Shown here: positions 18,272 through 38,191 of the stretch, in pieces
Position numbering within the stretch: the stretch's first letter is position 1
How the letters are laid out: each line of letters opens with the position of its first letter
Assembly (NCBI GenBank): GCA_031267575.1
Contig: JAIRYN010000025.1
Coordinates: 1-39,144 of the forward strand
From: Synergistaceae bacterium
GTDB lineage: Bacteria; Synergistota; Synergistia; Synergistales; Aminobacteriaceae
Reading direction: 5' to 3'
DNA length: 39,144 nt
Made by a program: the position numbers and the translations under genes
Notes under the pieces: model-generated
The model's database searches: none
What the model was told of the DNA's origin: nothing
The model's input: only the letters and a program-made list of their open reading frames with translations

Positions 18272-18830
18272 ATGGATAAGATATATAGTTCGAGGTAAGC
18301 GGCAGAATTTCTTGGCGTCAAAGTAAAAACTCTACAGAAGTGAGATAGGAAAGTGAGACAGGGAGGATCAATTAAAACCCACTTCACGAAGTAAAATAAA
18401 TCGGAGGATTTATATCGAGAACCAATTAAGAGATTTTCTGTGTTTGAAGTCGGAAGATTCTCGTGTCAGAGTCGTTGCGTATTGTCGGGTTTCCAGCCGA
18501 GCTCAGAAGCCCGACTTAAGAAATCAGTAAACAGTTACTGAATAATATTGCGGCGAATTGGGGCTACGAGATGTCGAGTTTATTTGCGAAGTTGGTAGTG
18601 ATCTAATCGGTTTCGAGTGGTTTGAGCGCTTTATTAAAGATCATTTTTGTGAGCTAAAAATTTGGGACAGCAAGGAATTGAGTCCAGAGTAAGAAATGAT
18701 CCAGGATTTAATGACGATAGTTCATTGTTTTAGCTCAAGGTTATATGGGTTACGAAACTACAAAAAATCCTTAAAGGAGGCGCTGGAACATGATTATAGC
18801 TTACAAGACAGAAATAGATCCAGTGTCTGA
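18272..18830 (+). pseudogene. tnpA: IS607-type TnpA serine recombinase, broken
   Basis: From ATG 18272 the frame shows a MerR-like helix-turn-helix start (MDKIYSSR, stop, AAEFLGVKVKTLQK, stop). Later come VRVVAYCRVSSRAQKP, the serine recombinase active-site motif with Arg and Ser, and IVHCFSSRLYGLRNYKKSLK near the end, all typical of IS607 TnpA. TAA at 18296 and TGA at 18341 correspond to CAA and TGG in the copy at 37643-38191, so they are point nonsense mutations. A further local duplication and at least one frameshift lie in the middle. The end overlaps the tnpB start, as usual in this family. No functional protein is possible. Confidence 0.8.
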
Positions 18831-19848
18831 GCAGATTGAGAAGATATCTCGAACTATCGGCGTTTGTCGTTTCGTGTATAACCTATTTATAGCCACGAAC
18901 CAGCAAAACTACAAAGGGGGTAAAAAGTATTTTAACGTTTATGCTTTTTCTAAGTGGCTGAACAATGATTATCGCGAGCTTCATTTTGAAAACTCATGGA
19001 TTCGAGAAGTGTCCTCAAAAGCTGTAAAGCAGACTATTATCAATGCTGACTTAGCTTGCAAACGGTTTTTCAAGATGAAGAAAGGATTTCCAAAATTTAA
19101 GAGGAAACATGATAGCGACACCGGCTTTTACGTTCCTCGTAACAACGTGCCTCGTAACAATGAAAAGGACACGGAAGCGCGGCAGCATCGAATCAAGATA
19201 CCCACCCTAGGCTGGGTAAAGCTGAAAGAGTATGGGTATATACCTGTTGGGCTATCCGATGGAATAGGTGTTGATTTAGGTATTAAAGAAACAGCTACCG
19301 TTTCTAACCATCAGGTTTTTAGCAATATCAACAAAACATCCAGAGTTAAGAAATTAAAACGCAGGCTTAAACGAGAACAATGTAAATTTTTTCGAAAAAT
19401 TAATTATAGAAAGAAGGTGAAACCTGCTACTGTAAAATTTACGAACCTAGATGAACAGCGTATCAAAGTCCAGAAAGCCTACTACAGACTTGATTGTGTA
19501 AGAAAAGACTATATCAACAAAATAGTCTGTGCGCTGGTGATGACCAAGCCAGCCTATATCACAATCGAGGACCTCAATATTCTTGGAATGATGAAAAATA
19601 AGCATCTCTCACATCTCTCAAAGGCTATAGCGGAACAGAATTTTTACTGTTTTGAAACCAAGCTGTCTGAGAAATGCAAGAGACACAACATAGAGCTTCG
19701 AGCTGCTGACCGATTTTTTCCCTCATCTTTTTTCCTTCATCTTTTTTCCCTCATCTTTTTTCCCTCATCGAAGATGTGCTCGAATTGTGGGGCTATAAAG
19801 TGGGGTTTAAAGAAGGACTTGAAACAAGGATTTGAAACAAGGCTTTGA
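18790..19848 (+). pseudogene. tnpB: TnpB RNA-guided nuclease gene, degenerate
   Basis: The N-terminus (IAYKTEIDPVSEQIEKISRT), CRFVYNLFIATNQQNY, DGIGVDLGIKETATVSN (RuvC Asp), YITIEDLNILGMMKNK (RuvC Glu) and ADRFFPSS...KMCSNCG (zinc finger) identify TnpB, ancestor of Cas12. Defects: sequence between GYIPVG and GIGVDLGIK, where the second half of the nucleic-acid-binding barrel should be, is missing. Four copies of a 14-bp unit insert 14 residues before the zinc finger. A second tandem duplication near 19818-19849 shifts the frame, separating the last part (GDRVYICQEYGLKIDRYMNA) and its Asp. One zinc-finger Cys has become Tyr there. An inactive relic. Confidence 0.85.
19714..19769. repeat. Four tandem 14-bp units inside tnpB
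   Basis: TTTTTTCCCTCATC occurs at 19714, 19728 (one change), 19742 and 19756. Three extra copies add 42 bp, which preserves the reading frame although one or two extra copies would not. Confidence 0.92.
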
Positions 19849-21930: not shown

Positions 21931-22176
21931 AAGATACTTCACTAAATATCCACTAAGTTCATCTCGCTGTTCACTGTTCATTTTCTCGAAGCGCGAGTTT
22001 ATTTTGATATATAAATTTTTCATGTTTCAGTCTGCTTTCTAGAATCGCAAATTCATATCGTTACGCAGGTCATTTACGGCTTTTTCTGTCCGTGTTTCAA
22101 ATTTTTCGCGGCTTTTTTCTTCGGAAACAGCCGCGTCCACGTAGCATATCTCACTTTCAAATCGCTTTTTGTCCAT
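21928..22176 (-). pseudogene. Small coiled-coil protein gene with in-frame stops
   Basis: An excellent AAAGGAGG ribosome site precedes ATG 22176. The frame reads MDKKRFESEICYVDAAVSEE, then KSREKFETRTEKAVNDLRND and MNLRF to TAG at 22039 (45 residues). In the same frame beyond the stop are KAD, a TGA, NMKNLYIKINSRFEKMNSEQ and RDELSGYLVKYL, ending at 21928 in the right end of the IS remnant. The charged heptad pattern (NSRFEKMNSEQRDE) suggests one 80-residue coiled-coil protein broken by two stops. A functional 45-residue product is possible. It is divergent from the serine recombinase gene. Confidence 0.5.
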
Positions 22177-22291
22177 TGGCCAATGCCTCCTTTCAGGAAA
22201 ATTGTAACGTCGGTCATTATCCATTATCTCATCGTTGATTCGGTATAATATTCTGTCTTTACAGTATTTTACATTTTACGCTTCATTGTAG

Positions 22292-23050
<759 letters not shown>

Positions 23051-23080
23051 ATGAGAAAGCCAACGGCTTCAGCTGTTGTT

Positions 23081-23108
23081 GGATGAGATTGGATGAGATT
23101 GGATGAGA
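23081..23108. repeat. Three tandem 10-bp units
   Basis: GGATGAGATT is repeated at 23081, 23091 and 23101 (last copy GGATGAGA), in the spacer after the recombinase gene. Confidence 0.9.
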
Positions 23109-23113
23109 ATCGC

Positions 23114-23139
23114 AACGCCGCCGTTGGCGGCGTTTGTTT
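23114..23139 (+). terminator. Hairpin terminator after the recombinase gene
   Basis: Perfect 9-bp stem AACGCCGCC/GGCGGCGTT with a GTT loop, followed by TGTTTTGT. It lies about 130 bp beyond the recombinase stop and would protect the following region from read-through. Confidence 0.65.
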
Positions 23140-23198
23140 TGTATTTGATTTCTTGCCATATGTCTACTTTCATGCTAAACTCTTTTTATGGCTTATCA

Positions 23199-23398
23199 AT
23201 GCGAGATGCAGGGCGGAACACGACCGGGATATTAATTAATGTAGCTGTAAATATTCTCAGAGTGGGGGCATCCACTCTTAAAGTGGTGGGCATCCACTCT
23301 TAAATAAAGAAGAAGACGTAAGACGTAAGACCAGTTTCAGTCGGCTGTCTTTGTCGATCTTAGAATCCCATGACTTTAGTCGTGGGGGTATGTCAATT
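23199..23398 (+). mobile_element. IS200/IS605-type 3' remnant 2
   Basis: Related to 21761-21930: it contains GCGGAACACGACCGGGATAT, CTGTAAATATTCTCAGAGTG and GGCATCCACTCTTA. The right-end hairpin is CCCATGACTTTAGTCGTGGG (23367-23386), then TATGTCAA. The TnpB reading is frameshifted at the DRDIN motif, and GGGCATCCACTCTTAAA is duplicated in tandem. It ends four bases before the stop of the radical SAM gene on the other strand. Confidence 0.75.
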
Positions 23399-23402
23399 AT
23401 TA

Positions 23403-25139
23403 TTAGTCAAGTAAATCTTTAATCGTTACGATTCGTTTTACCGACGGATACAAGTCGTCAATCATCATGGTAATTTCGCTCAACACGGTTGACTTGAACT
23501 GTGGAAAAGCGTAAAGCACAGTCTCGATTTGATTATCCTCTATAACTTGTGGGAGTAATGTCGGTTTGCCCGTAATTTCAAATACGCCCTTGCTGTGCAC
23601 CTCGTGGGGGTTGACGTTTACGAGAAACGTATTCGGGTGCGCGACAAACTCCGGCGATATTCTGTTCAGCATTTCCGCGACTGTCAGAATTATCGGCCAA
23701 ACGGCGACTTTACCCGACACACATAAGTCCGTCAGTTTTTTCGCGACGACGCTGAAATCAAGGGCTTCAATGTCGACGTCTATTCCCGCGCCGTACAGCC
23801 ACTGGAATAACTCGACGTTGACGACCATATCCCAGTATTCTTTGTCGGGTATTTTGCTGACGTTAATCTGCATACGATTGTCTTTGAGGTACTTTACAGG
23901 GTCGCTTATTATTCCGCGCTTGATTGCGGTTTTGTACAAATGGCTGCCGGGGAATGTGTATATCCATAAAAGATAGATAGTCCAATTCTGATGTGCTTTC
24001 CACCAGTTGAGCGAATGAACAATCGTCTCGCGGGTCTCTTCCAAATCGCCGAAAATGATGTTGCCGCGCGCCCACAAGCCCACTTGTTTTGCCGCATCAA
24101 ACGCCGCATCTATTTGCTCGACAGTGATATTCTTGCGCATACTTTTGAGAATCGAGTTGTCCGCGCTTTCCACTCCAAAAAGTATCATGGAACAACCCGC
24201 GTCTTTCAACCTTGAAAGTATTTCGACAGAAACAGTATCGACGCGGGTTTGAGCCCCCCAAGTCAAGTTATACGGTTTGATTCTCTCGCAAAATCCGGTT
24301 ATGAATTCCGCGTTGCCGATAAATAATTCGTCTGCAAATGTAAAATGGGTAAGTTTGTATTTTGCAATCAGCCAATCAAGTTCCTCAAATACATTGTCAA
24401 GCGAACGGCGGCGGTATTTTTTGCCGCTTGAATGAAAACAAAACGTGCAGTTGTATGGGCAACTGCGGCTGATCGCGACATTTGCCGCTATAGTTGCAAA
24501 ACGGTCCGAACTATATAAGCCGTCGCGCACCAAAAGTTCAAATTCAAAACCGTCATAATTGGGGAACGGCAGACAATCAAGATTAGCAATCTCGCCTCGG
24601 GTGGGGAGGACGCCAGACTTTGTCGCAACGCCGCAGATTCTCGCGCTATCCGCGTTTGTTTCAATCGCGTACGCCAATTCGTTGACGGTTATCTCGCCCT
24701 CGCCGATAACGCCGTAGTCGGCGGTCTCGAACGCTTGCATCGCAACGAGCGGGTCGGCGGTTATTATCCCGCCGCCACATATTGTGACTATATCTGTATC
24801 AACCGACTTTGCCGTATCGAAAATTTCTTTTAATATTGCGTACTGTCCGCTCAGTCCGCCGGACAAAACGACATCTATACTGTTGTCGATTATAAAATTT
24901 CGCAAATGTTCAAGATGATTTTGTTTATAGTTGAGATTGAGCGTGAACACGTTACGGCCGCTCGCTTTCAGTGCGGACGACACTATACAAAGCCCATACG
25001 GAAATGGATATGATATATCATCGCGTTCAGCCATTCGCGGCATCACAATCAAATAGTTCAGCCGCTTGCCGTCAGGGCTGGGCAGCTTAATTATGTCGAG
25101 GAACTCCTGTGTAACATGCTCTGGCATATTTTCAGTCAT
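23403..25139 (-). CDS. B12-binding-type radical SAM protein
   Basis: About 578 residues. The N-terminal part is a cobalamin-binding-like Rossmann domain (YPFPYGLCIVSSALKASGRN, VVLSGGLSGQYAILKEIFDT, TICGGGIITADPLVAM, DYGVIGEGEITVNELAYAIE) without the DxHxxG His loop, as in base-off members such as BchE/HpnP-type proteins. The radical SAM core has ISRSCPYNCTFCF with the CxxxCxxC cluster (about residue 220), then GVESADNSILKSMRK and RGNIIFGDLEETRE. The ~200-residue C-terminal part is unrecognised. Reaction unknown; methylation or ring chemistry is typical of the class. ATG 25139 has GGGAG seven bases upstream. It is last in the operon, and its 5' end is duplicated at 27740. Confidence 0.88.
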   Translation of the reverse strand: MTENMPEHVTQEFLDIIKLPSPDGKRLNYLIVMPRMAERDDISYPFPYGLCIVSSALKASGRNVFTLNLNYKQNHLEHLRNFIIDNSIDVVLSGGLSGQYAILKEIFDTAKSVDTDIVTICGGGIITADPLVAMQAFETADYGVIGEGEITVNELAYAIETNADSARICGVATKSGVLPTRGEIANLDCLPFPNYDGFEFELLVRDGLYSSDRFATIAANVAISRSCPYNCTFCFHSSGKKYRRRSLDNVFEELDWLIAKYKLTHFTFADELFIGNAEFITGFCERIKPYNLTWGAQTRVDTVSVEILSRLKDAGCSMILFGVESADNSILKSMRKNITVEQIDAAFDAAKQVGLWARGNIIFGDLEETRETIVHSLNWWKAHQNWTIYLLWIYTFPGSHLYKTAIKRGIISDPVKYLKDNRMQINVSKIPDKEYWDMVVNVELFQWLYGAGIDVDIEALDFSVVAKKLTDLCVSGKVAVWPIILTVAEMLNRISPEFVAHPNTFLVNVNPHEVHSKGVFEITGKPTLLPQVIEDNQIETVLYAFPQFKSTVLSEITMMIDDLYPSVKRIVTIKDLLD

Positions 25140-25227
25140 AATGATTCTCCCATTCTTGAAATCAGAACTTTCCGCTTGTCGTCCAAAACTCCATCTCATT
25201 TGAACAATCGTCCGGGGCGCAACAGTT

Positions 25228-26259
25228 CTAGCATTTCGGACGCGTTTTGTATCCGCCGCGAAATAGTATTTTTTCTCCGAATAAATTGATAAGTTTGTTG
25301 CTGTATTGATCCAAATAGTCAGCGTCGTGCGTACCGTAATCCGGCAAATTGCAGGCAGCGCAGCACTTGTTTTGCCATCTGCCGCCAATTTGCAGCCGTA
25401 GGAATTCACGGCGCGTGTTGCCATTCCAAATCTCGCCGAAACTCTCGCGCAGGATATTGCCGAAGATCACGGGAGCTTCGAGCGCACAGCAACCGCCGAC
25501 ATCGCCGTTAGGCATAATCATCACCATATAGAATGGCATAGCGCAAATGTTGACGCTCATCGCCTTTTGACCCGTGTCTTTACGGAGCGTCAAGTCCCCG
25601 CCGAGTGTGTCGTAGTCAATCAGTCGCATAGCCGGGCTTAAATGTTCTATAGCCGCCGTATCGCTTATGCCGTCAAAGATTTTGTGGAATTTTCCTTCGC
25701 CGTTCTGCTCATCAAGGGCGATGTCTATAATCTTGACATATAAGTCGGTCTCACACTTTTGTAGGTAAAAATATTCAATATTGCTGACAAATTTATCAAA
25801 GTCAACATCAAACCCGCACACGCGCTTATACGCGTCTGCGTCGCATCCTTGCAGTGAAATCCGCATACGGTCAAGACCCGAGTTAATCAGCGTGTCCGAC
25901 ATTTCGCGTGTCAGCAGACTGCCGTTAGTCACAATCTCAACGCGCTCCGCGATATTCTGCTGTTTCGCGAGTTTGACCATATCAGCAATTCGCGGATGCG
26001 CCAGCGGTTCTCCATAACCCGCGAAAATGAGCGCTTTCAGGGGTACGGGTAGTTTGGCGAATTCGTTTACGGCGCATTCATACGTCTCAAACGGCATAGT
26101 CTGCTTGACAAAATCCATCTTGCAAAGCTGCTCCGCTGAGAGACTATGCACGCAGTAGTTACAGCGAAAGTTGCAATAGTACGACTGAAAAATATGCACC
26201 GACATCGGGGAGGCAAGTGGCAGTTGGTCAATCAGCGGTGTGCGGGCTGGTATACTCAT
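25228..26259 (-). CDS. Radical SAM protein with SPASM-like C-terminus
   Basis: A 343-residue radical SAM enzyme. The cluster motif is YYCNFRCNYCVHS (about residues 28-40), with AGYGEPLAHPRIADMVKLAK, VEIVTNGSLLTREMSD and LDRMRISLQGCDADAYKRVC. The C-terminal region has SPASM-type cysteines (NICAMPFYMVMIMPNGDVGG, CCALE, FGNILRESFGEIWNG, then CCAACNLPDYGTHDADYLD). These bind auxiliary Fe-S clusters and occur in peptide-, sugar- and alcohol-modifying enzymes. The start codon overlaps the glycosyltransferase stop (ATGA), so the two are translationally coupled. The B12-type radical SAM gene starts 88 bp further on. Substrate is unknown; a sugar or glycan is suggested by the neighbour. Confidence 0.9.
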   Translation of the reverse strand: MSIPARTPLIDQLPLASPMSVHIFQSYYCNFRCNYCVHSLSAEQLCKMDFVKQTMPFETYECAVNEFAKLPVPLKALIFAGYGEPLAHPRIADMVKLAKQQNIAERVEIVTNGSLLTREMSDTLINSGLDRMRISLQGCDADAYKRVCGFDVDFDKFVSNIEYFYLQKCETDLYVKIIDIALDEQNGEGKFHKIFDGISDTAAIEHLSPAMRLIDYDTLGGDLTLRKDTGQKAMSVNICAMPFYMVMIMPNGDVGGCCALEAPVIFGNILRESFGEIWNGNTRREFLRLQIGGRWQNKCCAACNLPDYGTHDADYLDQYSNKLINLFGEKILFRGGYKTRPKC

Positions 26260-27335
26260 AACGTAATCTCCTTGGAAAGAGAGATGGGAAGAGATTTGGA
26301 AAGAGATTTAGAAAGAGATTTAGAAAGAGGCAAGCGTTTCAAAATTTCATCTAATGCATTTTGATAAGAGCGGAAATTAGTGTCTTTGTCAAAGTCGAGA
26401 GAACGTTTGCGCGCGTTGTTTCCATAACGAACCCTTGTTTGCTCGCTTTGGCGCAATGAAAAAAGTGCTTTTGCATATTCACCCGCACTTCCAATAAGCA
26501 TACCGTTCACTTCGTGTTCAACGTGCCATTTCCCGACGGGTTCTTTCGACATAACTATTGGCAATCCGACAGCCATGGCTTCAAGAACGGCATTGTCTGT
26601 CGTTGCGAATGAATCCGGCTGCAACAGATATCCAAACACGTCAAACTCCCGTAGAACGCGGTACACATCATCTACCCAGCCCGTAAACGTTACGTTCGGG
26701 TGAACAATTTTCCCGTCGGATGCCCCGACCATAACGAACCGCGCGTTCGGGATTAACTTGACGGCCGTGTCGACATAATCGAGAAAATCGTGCGGCAACT
26801 TCTTGTAGGTCGGGGATCCTACATATCCGATTACAAATCCGCCGCTGTGCAGGGAATAATCTGTCTTCGGTTCAATCTCTGTTGGATCAAAGTCGCCGAA
26901 GCCATAGACAAGTGTTGACTTGCCGCGAAATTCCGGCAACGCCAACGTCGCTGGCGTGCTCACCATAATATGGTCTGCGCGGTCACGAATATCGTCCGGC
27001 ATTTTAGGCCCGACAACGTCGTTGTTGTGATACCACAGGAACAGTCTGCGGTCTTGCGGAAATCTGCGAATCAAATCATTGACCCTGTCGATAGCGTAAC
27101 TGTCAAAATAACTGACGACAACCGCGTCTGCTTTGTCAATCGCAGAGTCTGAATCAGCGCTCCCAAGTACAGAAACACCCGCCGTCTTGCACCGCTCAAT
27201 ATGATGAAACTTGCGCGGTTCATCAAGTAATAATACACTGTAATTATCGCCCGCCTGCTGCCCAAGACGCGCAATTCCCGAAACCGCCTTACCCACGCCG
27301 CCGCCCATATGCGGGATTATATGCAACACATTCAT
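26256..27335 (-). CDS. Glycosyltransferase, GT4-like (GT-B fold)
   Basis: A 359-residue transferase with the two Rossmann lobes of GT-B enzymes. The N-terminus MNVLHIIPHMGGGVGKAVSG is a typical GT4 acceptor lobe. The C-terminal lobe has GGFVIGYVGSPTYKKLPHDF, ARFVMVGAS, VTFTGWVDDVYRVLREFDVF and DNAVLEAMAVGLPIVMS, with the nucleotide-sugar-binding Glu pair region. The protein ends in repeated SKSL units made by a 12-bp tandem duplication at 26286-26330. Both borders overlap by 4 bp: ATGA with an epimerase-like remnant upstream and with the SPASM gene downstream. It probably acts on a surface polysaccharide or small glycoside at the inner membrane; donor and acceptor are not predictable. Confidence 0.9.
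   Translation of the reverse strand: MNVLHIIPHMGGGVGKAVSGIARLGQQAGDNYSVLLLDEPRKFHHIERCKTAGVSVLGSADSDSAIDKADAVVVSYFDSYAIDRVNDLIRRFPQDRRLFLWYHNNDVVGPKMPDDIRDRADHIMVSTPATLALPEFRGKSTLVYGFGDFDPTEIEPKTDYSLHSGGFVIGYVGSPTYKKLPHDFLDYVDTAVKLIPNARFVMVGASDGKIVHPNVTFTGWVDDVYRVLREFDVFGYLLQPDSFATTDNAVLEAMAVGLPIVMSKEPVGKWHVEHEVNGMLIGSAGEYAKALFSLRQSEQTRVRYGNNARKRSLDFDKDTNFRSYQNALDEILKRLPLSKSLSKSLSKSLPISLSKEITL
26286..26330. repeat. Near-fourfold 12-bp tandem repeat at the glycosyltransferase 3' end
   Basis: GGAAAGAGATTT-type units recur with a 12-bp period (26286, 26298, 26310, partial at 26322), giving the SKSL-SKSL-SKSL tail in frame. Confidence 0.9.
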
Positions 27336-27430
27336 ACGCCGTTCAGCCCTTTCGCTATGTTCTTAACCGCTTGTTCGAATCCAATTGTCGGCACAAAGCC
27401 AGTTTTAAGTATCATCTGTGAACTTGCTCA
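27332..27430 (-). pseudogene. 3' remnant of an NAD-dependent sugar epimerase/dehydratase
   Basis: Ending in an ATGA overlap with the glycosyltransferase, the frame reads SSQMILKTGFVPTIGFEQAV, then KNIAKGLNGV. This is like the C-terminal signature of extended SDR sugar epimerases (residue pair Gly-Phe/Trp-x-Pro, then a helix). Upstream, after an in-frame TGA at about 27433, MPFDSRD is still readable through the left inverted-repeat arm. The rest of the gene is gone. It shows that the operon once began with a nucleotide-sugar epimerase. Assignment by motif only. Confidence 0.55.
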
Positions 27431-27437
27431 ATCGCGA

Positions 27438-27463
27438 CTATCAAAAGGCATACTTTTTGACAG
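27438..27463 (-). repeat. Recombinase-site-like inverted repeat, left arm
   Basis: On the minus strand this 26-bp site reads CTGTCAAAAAGTATG then CCTTTTGATAG. Its inner 23 bp are exactly complementary to 27569-27591. It is quasi-palindromic around a central AT and its half-site resembles the TTATCAAAAA half of Hin recombination sites. Confidence 0.6.
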
Positions 27464-27513
27464 GCGCTTTAACACTAACCAACAACAGCAAAATAGCTAA
27501 ATTTTAACTAAGT

Positions 27514-27522
27514 ATTATACCA
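27514..27522 (-). promoter_or_regulatory. Extended -10 promoter-like sequence between inverted repeats
   Basis: On the minus strand the sequence ATGGTATAAT provides TATAAT preceded by TGG, an extended -10. The -35 region is poor. It points toward the epimerase remnant, glycosyltransferase and radical SAM genes. Being placed between inverted repeats, it would change direction if the segment inverted. Confidence 0.5.
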
Positions 27523-27565
27523 TAATTATCCCAAAATTTCGAGTTCAAATTTCAATTCTAGGGCT

Positions 27566-27591
27566 TTATCAAAAAGTATGCCTTTTGATAG
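27566..27591 (+). repeat. Recombinase-site-like inverted repeat, right arm
   Basis: Reads TTATCAAAAAGTATG then CCTTTTGATAG; 26 bp with ATCAAAA and TTTTGAT arms around AGTATGCC. It is the inverse of 27438-27463 over 23 perfect bases, 105 bp away. Confidence 0.6.
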
Positions 27592-27700
27592 CTACTTTGG
27601 CATTAATCAACAACAGTTGCTTAACAAGCAACTTCCTCAGATGATTAAATTGCGTCGGATAACAACCTTGCCAGACGCTGCGAGATAATCAGCAATGGCA

Positions 27701-27727
27701 GTTTGCTCACGAGAGTTTGCTCACGAG
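27701..27727. repeat. Two tandem 14-bp units upstream of the radical SAM remnant
   Basis: GTTTGCTCACGAGA occurs at 27701 and again from 27715 (last base differs), a few bases upstream of the ATG at 27740. Confidence 0.85.
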
Positions 27728-27739
27728 GGAATATTCAGA

Positions 27740-28081
27740 ATGACTGAAAATATGCCAGAGCATATTACACAGGAGTTCCTCGACATCATCAAGCTGCCCA
27801 GCCCTGACGGCAAGCGGCTGAACTATTTGATTGTGATGCCGCGAATGGTTAAGCGTAATGATATGTCATATCCGTTTGCGTATGGGCTTTGTATAGTGTC
27901 ATCCGCGCTGAAAGCGAGCGGCCGTAACGTGTTCATGCTCAATCTCCACTATAAACACAATTATCTTGAACATTTGCGAAATTTTATCATCGACAACAGT
28001 ATAAATGTCGTTTTGTCCGGCGGACTGAGCGGACAGTACGCAATATTAAAAGAGGAAACAAACGATAGAAGAAACAAATGA
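27740..28081 (+). pseudogene. Truncated second copy of the B12-type radical SAM gene (5' part)
   Basis: MTENMPEHITQEFLDIIKLP and the next ~85 codons closely match the start of the gene at 25139, with about ten substitutions (for example MVKRNDMSYPFAYG for MAERDDISYPFPYG). Identity stops after YAILKE, near 28053. The rest is low-complexity repeat (GAAACAAA/GATAGA) up to a stop at 28081. Only the N-terminal half of the B12-like domain remains and the catalytic core is absent. It lies head-to-head with the intact operon, on the far side of the promoter-like block. Confidence 0.85.
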
Positions 28082-28113
28082 TAGAGGTGATAGAGGAAAC
28101 AAACCGAGCGCGA

Positions 28114-28923
28114 TCAACACCTGCACAGCCTCGAAGCCGACAGGACGACCAGGTTGGCTGCCACGACGCTGGCTCCCGTGGGCAGGTTCAGAACAAAAGA
28201 CGCAACCATTCCGGCCAGAAAGCAAAAGACCGAAACCGCTACCGACGCCGCCACCAAACCCTTGAAGCTCTTAGCAAGTTTTCGTGCCGTGACCGCCGGC
28301 ATGATAATCAAACTCGAAATCAAAAGAGTCCCCATCATGCGCATTCCCAAGACCACTGTCAAGGCGGTTAGAAAGGAAATTAAAAACTGATACCGGGTCA
28401 CATCAATCCCCAAAGTCCGGGCGTAGTCTTCGTTGTACACGATCAAAAAAAGGCGGTTGTAAAACAGTACGAACAGCCCAATGACAAATACCGCTAAGAC
28501 AACACTCAAAACCACGTCCTCTCGTGTCATGGCAAGAATGCTGCCAAACATATAGTTATAGACGTCCACGTTGAGCCCCCGCGTCAGAGTCGTCACGATG
28601 ATTCCGGCAGCAAGTGCCCCCGAAGAGGCGATACCAATGGCCACGTCACCTCCAAAGCGCTTTCTCTGGCTGACGAACATGATGACAAAGGACGCAGCGA
28701 TCACCAAGGGTGTGGAGACGTAAAGAGGCGGCAGCCCTAAAGCCAACGCAATGGAGAGTGCCGCGAACCCCACCTCGGACAAGCCGTGTCCTATGAGTGA
28801 GTAGCGCTTCAGCACCAAAACGACACCCAGGGCCGACGCGCAAAGAGAAACCAAAAGTCCCACCGCCAACCCCCTCATTACGAAGGGATAAGACAACAGC
28901 TCAAAAAATTCTTTCCAACTCAT
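28114..28923 (-). CDS. znuB: Zinc/manganese ABC transporter permease (ZnuB family)
   Basis: A 269-residue integral membrane protein of the ABC-3 metal permease family, with about eight hydrophobic segments. Landmarks are ALGVVLVLKRYSLIGHGLSE, VGFAALSIALALG, VAIGIASSGALAAGIIVTTL, VYNYMFGSILAMT, YARTLGIDVTRYQFLISFLT and MMGTLLISSLIIMPAVTARK. Partner ATPase ZnuC lies upstream in the same direction, separated by 156 bp holding a 17-bp tandem repeat. No periplasmic binding protein gene is in the window, so the system is incomplete locally. Zinc versus manganese cannot be decided from sequence alone. The truncated radical SAM copy ends 32 bp beyond its stop. Confidence 0.9.
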   Translation of the reverse strand: MSWKEFFELLSYPFVMRGLAVGLLVSLCASALGVVLVLKRYSLIGHGLSEVGFAALSIALALGLPPLYVSTPLVIAASFVIMFVSQRKRFGGDVAIGIASSGALAAGIIVTTLTRGLNVDVYNYMFGSILAMTREDVVLSVVLAVFVIGLFVLFYNRLFLIVYNEDYARTLGIDVTRYQFLISFLTALTVVLGMRMMGTLLISSLIIMPAVTARKLAKSFKGLVAASVAVSVFCFLAGMVASFVLNLPTGASVVAANLVVLSASRLCRC

Positions 28924-37657: not shown

Positions 37658-38191
37658 ATTTACTAATTAAGACATAAAGTGTAATATGGTGTTATAGATA
37701 AGATATATAGATAAGATATATAAATAAGATATATAGTTCGAGGCAAACGGCAGAATTTCTTGGCGTCAAAGTAAAAATTCTACAGAAGTGGGACAGGGAG
37801 GATAAATTAAAACTCATAAATTAATTATAGAAAGAAGGTGAAACCTGCTACTGTAAAATTCGCGAACCTAGACAAACAGCGTATCAAAGTCCAGAAAGCC
37901 TACTACAGACTTGATTGTGTAAGAAAAGACTATATCAACAAAATAGCCTCCACGCTGGTGAGGACCAATCCAGTCTATATCACAATCGAAGACCTTAATA
38001 TTCTTGGAATAATGAAAAACAAGCGTCTCTCAAAGGCTACATGCTATATACCGTGGACTACACGGGAATTTAAGCCTTTGGACTTCTGTACAAACTTGAG
38101 TAGCTTTGGCGAAAGAGGGAAGGATGAAGAGGGAAGGATGAAGAAGGAAAAATCTGGACTATTGCACATTTGTGTTGGTTTTCAGTAGCAG
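37643..38191 (+). mobile_element. Deleted IS607-type element, copy B
   Basis: Shares both ends with 18221-20100. It keeps the tnpA start region, where the codons are CAA and TGG in place of the stops of copy A (SSRQTAEFLGVKVKILQKWD). It then jumps by deletion to the middle of tnpB (KKVKPATVKFANLDKQRIKV, YITIEDLNILGIMKNKRLSK) and again to the right end. A 14-bp tandem repeat (ATAGATAAGATATA type, about 37694-37734) sits over the tnpA start. It lies between coaE, whose stop codon it supplies, and the DHH gene. Confidence 0.85.
37694..37734. repeat. Near-threefold 14-bp tandem repeat in IS607 copy B
   Basis: ATAGATAAGATATA-like units recur at a 14-bp period where copy A has a single ATGGATAAGATATATAG, destroying the tnpA start. 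Confidence 0.85.

Follow-up and report, generated by a model that had tools for sequence, protein, structure and literature searches.

The question raised by positions 27438-27591 of the window, i.e., the whole 39,144-nucleotide stretch of Synergistaceae DNA analysed here, is whether a promoter enclosed by two inverted repeats can be flipped and, if so, by which enzyme. We consider it very probable that a family of invertible promoters is dispersed over the genome, that this sequence is one of its switches, and that the serine recombinase encoded at 22334-22984 works them in trans. At the sequence level, this answer is supported by the sites themselves, their copy number, core compatibility and spacing, the opposite orientations of duplicated loci, and the linkage and co-occurrence of the sites with one recombinase clade.

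The 23-base inverted repeat of the original prediction was found exactly where it had been placed, with perfect complementarity between 27438-27460 and 27569-27591. No other inverted pair in the 39-kb window had a 16-nt seed and a separation of up to 300 bp, and none appeared in 60 windows simulated under a first-order Markov model. Each arm sits within a near-palindromic 24-mer of the form TATCAAAA-N8-TTTTGATA, with few deviations, and the AT centre that had been claimed for both sites was confirmed; the half-site TATCAAAA is one that we take to resemble hix. The hix-like sequence TTATCAAAAA, which had been assigned to the outer half, is actually the inner half of the right-hand site. The gap between the two 24-mers of the window switch is 104 bp, and the predicted element, measured from core to core, spans 128 bp rather than the ~105 bp first proposed. 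The features of the switch are as follows.

27438..27463, no strand: predicted left recombination site (24-mer 27439-27462; core dinucleotide AT 27450-27451)
27451..27578, no strand: predicted invertible segment, 128 bp core to core (reversed relative to the homologous flank of C65/L009; 128 bp is also the spacing of 10 of the 12 own-genome pairs)
27514..27542, minus strand: predicted extended -10 promoter (TGGTATAAT at 27522-27514; weak -35 TCGAAA at 27542-27537)
27566..27591, no strand: predicted right recombination site (24-mer 27567-27590; core AT 27578-27579)
27592..27616, no strand: remnant of a second promoter-segment copy (direct-repeat family D1; abuts the right site on its outside; close match to the start of the L015 segment)

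The last of these features accounts for the direct-orientation match of the flanks, which had been raised as a caution; being the remnant of a second promoter copy, it is no argument against an invertible element. The minus-strand promoter proposed to lie between the repeats and to face the operon was recovered by a promoter scan as TCGAAA-17-TATAAT with an upstream TG, scoring 10/12, and ATGGTATAAT is read on the minus strand at 27523-27514. The -10 element is kept in nearly all copies of the cassette. In its present orientation the predicted promoter points left, into a glycosyltransferase operon (the ON orientation), and the genes on either side are listed below.

23403..25424, minus strand: B12-binding radical SAM protein, third gene (domain annotation)
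25228..26259, minus strand: radical SAM/SPASM protein, second gene (domain annotation)
26256..27335, minus strand: glycosyltransferase group 1, first gene downstream of the promoter (Pfam PF13692, PF00534)
27695..28081, plus strand: truncated copy of the radical SAM gene, which would face the promoter after inversion

An Rfam search of positions 22000-28500 returned no RNA families. Elsewhere in the window, two ORFs (18790-19848 and 37838-38188) share closely similar stretches and look, by eye, like TnpB-type transposases.

A search of the organism's own genome (2.76 Mb in 76 contigs) revealed many further copies of the cassette, with 69-94% identity. A search with the site pattern identified 27 complete sites, compared with 0 for a reversed-pattern control. 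These formed 12 complete pairs, spaced by 128 bp in ten cases, 127 bp in one and 138 bp in one. Together with the ends of C53 and C51, where the contig stops just past the start of the second site, and with C5 and the solo site of C49, the family comprises ~16 loci. Two classes of core were distinguished, i.e., GT facing AC at nine loci and palindromic AT at seven, the window included. The solo site of C49 (L022:389-412) has an AT core and is flanked by an ATP-grasp gene on one side and a recombinase remnant on the other; it is what a deletion between two palindromic-core sites would leave. Beside most own-genome sites, and at some loci on both sides, we also observed a conserved flank of ~30 nt which, read outward, is GTCGCGATTGG.CGAGTTCACAGACGATA (e.g., 27407-27437 in the window).

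Segment orientation was compared between duplicated loci. C65 (L009) is a duplicate of the window locus, its left flank being colinear at 90.6% over 1011 bp; colinearity runs 51 bp into the site, after which a 155-bp segment aligns in reverse at 93.5%. Among ten informative loci the segment lies five times in each orientation, the two orientations being found between paralogous loci of a fragmented draft genome and not at one locus in one population. Whichever way the segment lies, one and the same end of it carries the variant inner half-site (TTTTTGACA or TTTTTGCTA) at every one of these loci. The inner half-site therefore travels with the segment, which places the exchange at the core. All 50 pairs collected from own, family and public loci were inverted, with complementary cores in 46 and palindromic AT cores in four. 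A further 14 pairs, three of them repeats of earlier ones, came from a later sample of 30 recombinase loci, taken from the order to which genome G083 belongs, and these too were all inverted. Among the resulting 64 tabulated pairs, in which a few loci are counted twice, there were no direct and no core-mismatched pairs.

Contig ends were also considered. An assembly k of 119 was derived from 16 contig ends shared over exactly 119 nt. Contig C5 ends directly after the core AT of its site even though its flank is unique in the genome, as expected if the reads hold two continuations; other causes of a contig end are possible. The ends of C51 and C53 fit only in part with recombination at the core and were given no weight; that of C51 also does not fully match what a simple coexistence of two orientations would predict. 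Both ends of the 118.8-kb contig C73 run outward into the same 119 nt, starting inside a site (L012:1-119 and the last 119 nt of L013). A 118-kb inversion between sites and a duplicated flank explain these ends equally well, so we did not use them as evidence.

The window holds a candidate for the enzyme, together with traces of a switch of its own.

22334..22984, plus strand: serine recombinase, candidate trans-acting invertase (Resolvase domain PF00239, 4e-30; the genome's only intact homologue)
22945..22969, no strand: decayed recombination site at the 3' end of the recombinase gene (by comparison with intact relatives)
22977..23039, plus strand: decayed promoter segment downstream of the recombinase gene (matching the promoter core at 84%)

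The recombinase is small and consists of a Resolvase catalytic domain and a C-terminal DNA-binding domain. Over both parts, a profile and a predicted model (pLDDT 79, pTM 0.50) align with gamma-delta, Sin and Gin. By sequence, Hin and Gin are not its closest relatives, a point against the favoured reading; the DNA-invertase entries 4m6f and 3uj3 reach 72-73 bits, less than gamma-delta (100 bits) and Sin (135.5 bits). With 46.9 bits against a cut-off of 272 for NCBIfam NF009949 (Mpi), the protein falls outside the Mpi family, and searches of an open-access library yielded no papers describing its clade.

Two kinds of evidence, i.e., linkage and co-occurrence, suggest that this recombinase would catalyse inversion of the cassettes. 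Among relatives, the gene stops within or right at one of two paired sites. A site was also located between -60 and +600 nt from the gene end in 43 of 80 public homologues, most of which come from gut Clostridia, and sites at the recombinase 3' end recur across phyla. In a sample of 61 genomes from the family and order, a recombinase homologue at a level of at least 67% was present in nine of the ten site-bearing genomes vs none of the 51 without sites (p 6e-10). The nearest named relatives are Synergistaceae metagenome-assembled genomes (recombinase identity 77-89%), whose isolate names suggest an origin in termite guts. When 25 genomes with recombinase-linked sites were searched, most had one or two pairs, and expansions besides that of the own genome were seen in G065 and G074. 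The latter, a member of the Clostridia, carries 13 AT-class sites (locus L079), with complete pairs 137 bp apart, and represents a second, independent expansion. A survey of a defined human gut community reported few invertible promoters per Clostridia genome (median 3), the Clostridia motifs being left unnamed (PMC11892184).

At four dispersed own-genome loci (C51, C17, C53 and C49), a degenerate 3' end of the recombinase gene lies directly against one site. Because of these remnants, the regulon seems to have grown by the copying of a recombinase-plus-switch unit followed by loss of the extra recombinases.

Alternatively, the switches might be fossils, i.e., once-invertible promoters in which inversion has stopped, for example through silencing of the recombinase, so that orientations are now frozen. 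In keeping with such an outcome, the recombinase's own linked switch in the window has decayed, the segments of L021 and L020 have diverged, and the other recombinase copies in the genome are pseudogenes. However, the sites are near-perfect palindromes at ~16 loci, 10 of the 12 spacings are unchanged, the recombinase ORF is intact with its conserved residues kept, and the C5 contig stops exactly at the core despite its unique flank. We therefore regard frozen switches as improbable and infer that the family is presently active.

The spacing of the sites carries a further signal. Across 38 pairs, spacings cluster at ~127, 137, 147, 157, 166 and 177 bp, with a best period of 10.25 bp (R 0.71) that was equalled in 0 of 20000 blurred null draws. 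Eleven new pairs obtained later had the same period and phase (p 2e-4); because relatedness among the sequences limits their independence, these phase p-values are indicative. Most simply, the two sites would have to lie on one face of a short loop. Searches of an open-access library yielded no description of helical phasing of short invertible promoters.

These properties bear on two further readings. The first is a 154-bp non-autonomous element of the MITE type, spread by transposition and bearing its promoter incidentally, and the cassette is indeed short, multicopy, dispersed through the genome and bounded by terminal inverted repeats. Yet each end is a full palindromic site of two halves and no simple terminus; the outside flanks share homology from locus to locus, those of L011, L012 and L018 being mirrored (inverted), the opposite of target duplication. 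No direct target-site duplication was seen by eye at the own-genome loci, and exact spacing, core compatibility and helical phase would have no role in such an element, which makes this reading very improbable. Scarcely credible is the second, in which the palindromes are operators occupied in phase by a repressor or nucleoid protein, around a segment that never inverts: palindromes around a promoter and helical phasing fit looping repression, but wherever the cores are not palindromic the two of a pair complement each other, duplicated flanks enclose segments of differing orientation, and sites occur at the recombinase gene 3' end across phyla. The simple duplication history that the original prediction had held in reserve partly describes the spread of the loci, but leaves the orientation, core and spacing data unexplained. 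An invertible promoter with serine-invertase-type sites, as first suggested, is the best reading of the ~16 loci, their opposite orientations, the co-occurrence with the recombinase and the compatible inverted cores.

In the invertible-promoter reading, recombinase dimers would bind both palindromic 26-bp sites, which would pair on the same helical face across a loop of ~128 bp. Cutting at the central dinucleotide, rotation and religation would then flip the segment. In the present orientation the promoter would read left, with the glycosyltransferase/radical-SAM operon ON; once flipped, it would read into the dead-end truncated gene, leaving the operon OFF.

It is also conceivable, if on balance doubtful, that inversion within a minimal short loop needs the same helical face and that the GT/AC and palindromic AT classes never cross-recombine, so that one recombinase would serve two separable sub-regulons. 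Sites of the AT class, to which the window and the flagellin locus described below belong, could also delete or exchange segments, and such events would have produced the C49 solo site and the tandem remnant at 27592-27616. Two ideas can be tested from here, namely that inversion depends on helical phase when the segment is shorter than ~200 bp, and that the targets of one recombinase are divided into separate groups by their core dinucleotide.

The cassettes have mainly glycosyltransferase, radical-SAM, flippase and ATP-grasp genes as neighbours. An obvious surface gene was found on one side at only 5 to 8 of the ~16 loci, some targets being lost at contig ends. The promoter faces its genes (ON) in the window, at the C53 end (glycosyltransferase remnant and FkbM methyltransferase) and at the inner C51 locus (FrhB-like protein and flippase). 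It faces away (OFF) at C65 (glycosyltransferase-radical SAM), C17 (glycosyltransferase 2), and C62 and C17b (TupA-like ATP-grasp). At C53b the cassette is OFF toward a GHMP kinase and its promoter currently faces glyQ (L020:6708-7096); this gene, recognised by eye as that of the glycyl-tRNA synthetase alpha chain, is a housekeeping gene that a flip might affect. At the end of C5, an AT-class site (L023:6769-6781) lies ~365 bp upstream of a gene for an 843-aa flagellin (L023:3873-6404), one of five flagellin-type genes, which suggests that this flagellin is probably phase-variable. The copies outside the window would switch other surface-glycan genes and probably this one flagellin, giving combinatorial phase variation of the surface. 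As the sites are easy to recognise, such switches should be findable in many draft genomes.

The closest functional parallel is the Mpi regulon of Bacteroides fragilis, in which one serine recombinase acts on 13 scattered invertible regions, seven of them surface polysaccharide promoters (PMC4747536). Here, too, there is one intact recombinase and ~16 dispersed predicted invertible promoters on which it would act, with surface genes prominent among the neighbours. Unlike the Mpi system, however, the present one belongs to a different phylum, its recombinase is only distantly related to Mpi (46.9 bits vs 272 for NF009949), a local switch linked to the recombinase persists in relatives, and the dispersal has left pseudogene remnants behind. 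If our reading is correct, global phase variation by a single invertase extends beyond Bacteroides to the Synergistaceae. It would also have a stepwise origin, in which a local unit of recombinase and neighbouring switch, common in gut Clostridia and seen in most of those sampled, was duplicated, left pseudogene stubs and became a trans-acting, Mpi-like regulon run by one gene. Tsr19/BF2766 of B. fragilis, a tyrosine recombinase that lies beside one invertible promoter and flips a distant one too (PMC4747536), is similarly intermediate between a local and a global switch, although its chemistry and sites differ from those of the serine type found here.

With Hin/hix of Salmonella, in which a serine recombinase acting on 26-bp sites inverts ~1 kb under the regulation of a Fis-bound enhancer (PMC3798978), the present system shares the type of recombinase, 26-bp sites with a two-base core and, by prediction, a flipped promoter that controls surface structures. 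It differs in that its 128-bp segment has little room inside for an enhancer and in that many loci would be served by a recombinase encoded outside the segment, whereas the Hin gene lies inside its own. The Sin and gamma-delta resolvases are the closest solved structures in sequence and fold; they resolve directly repeated sites with the help of accessory sites, whereas all site pairs here are inverted. The kind of system is known; what is new is the recombinase clade, the sites with two classes of core and the phased short loop.
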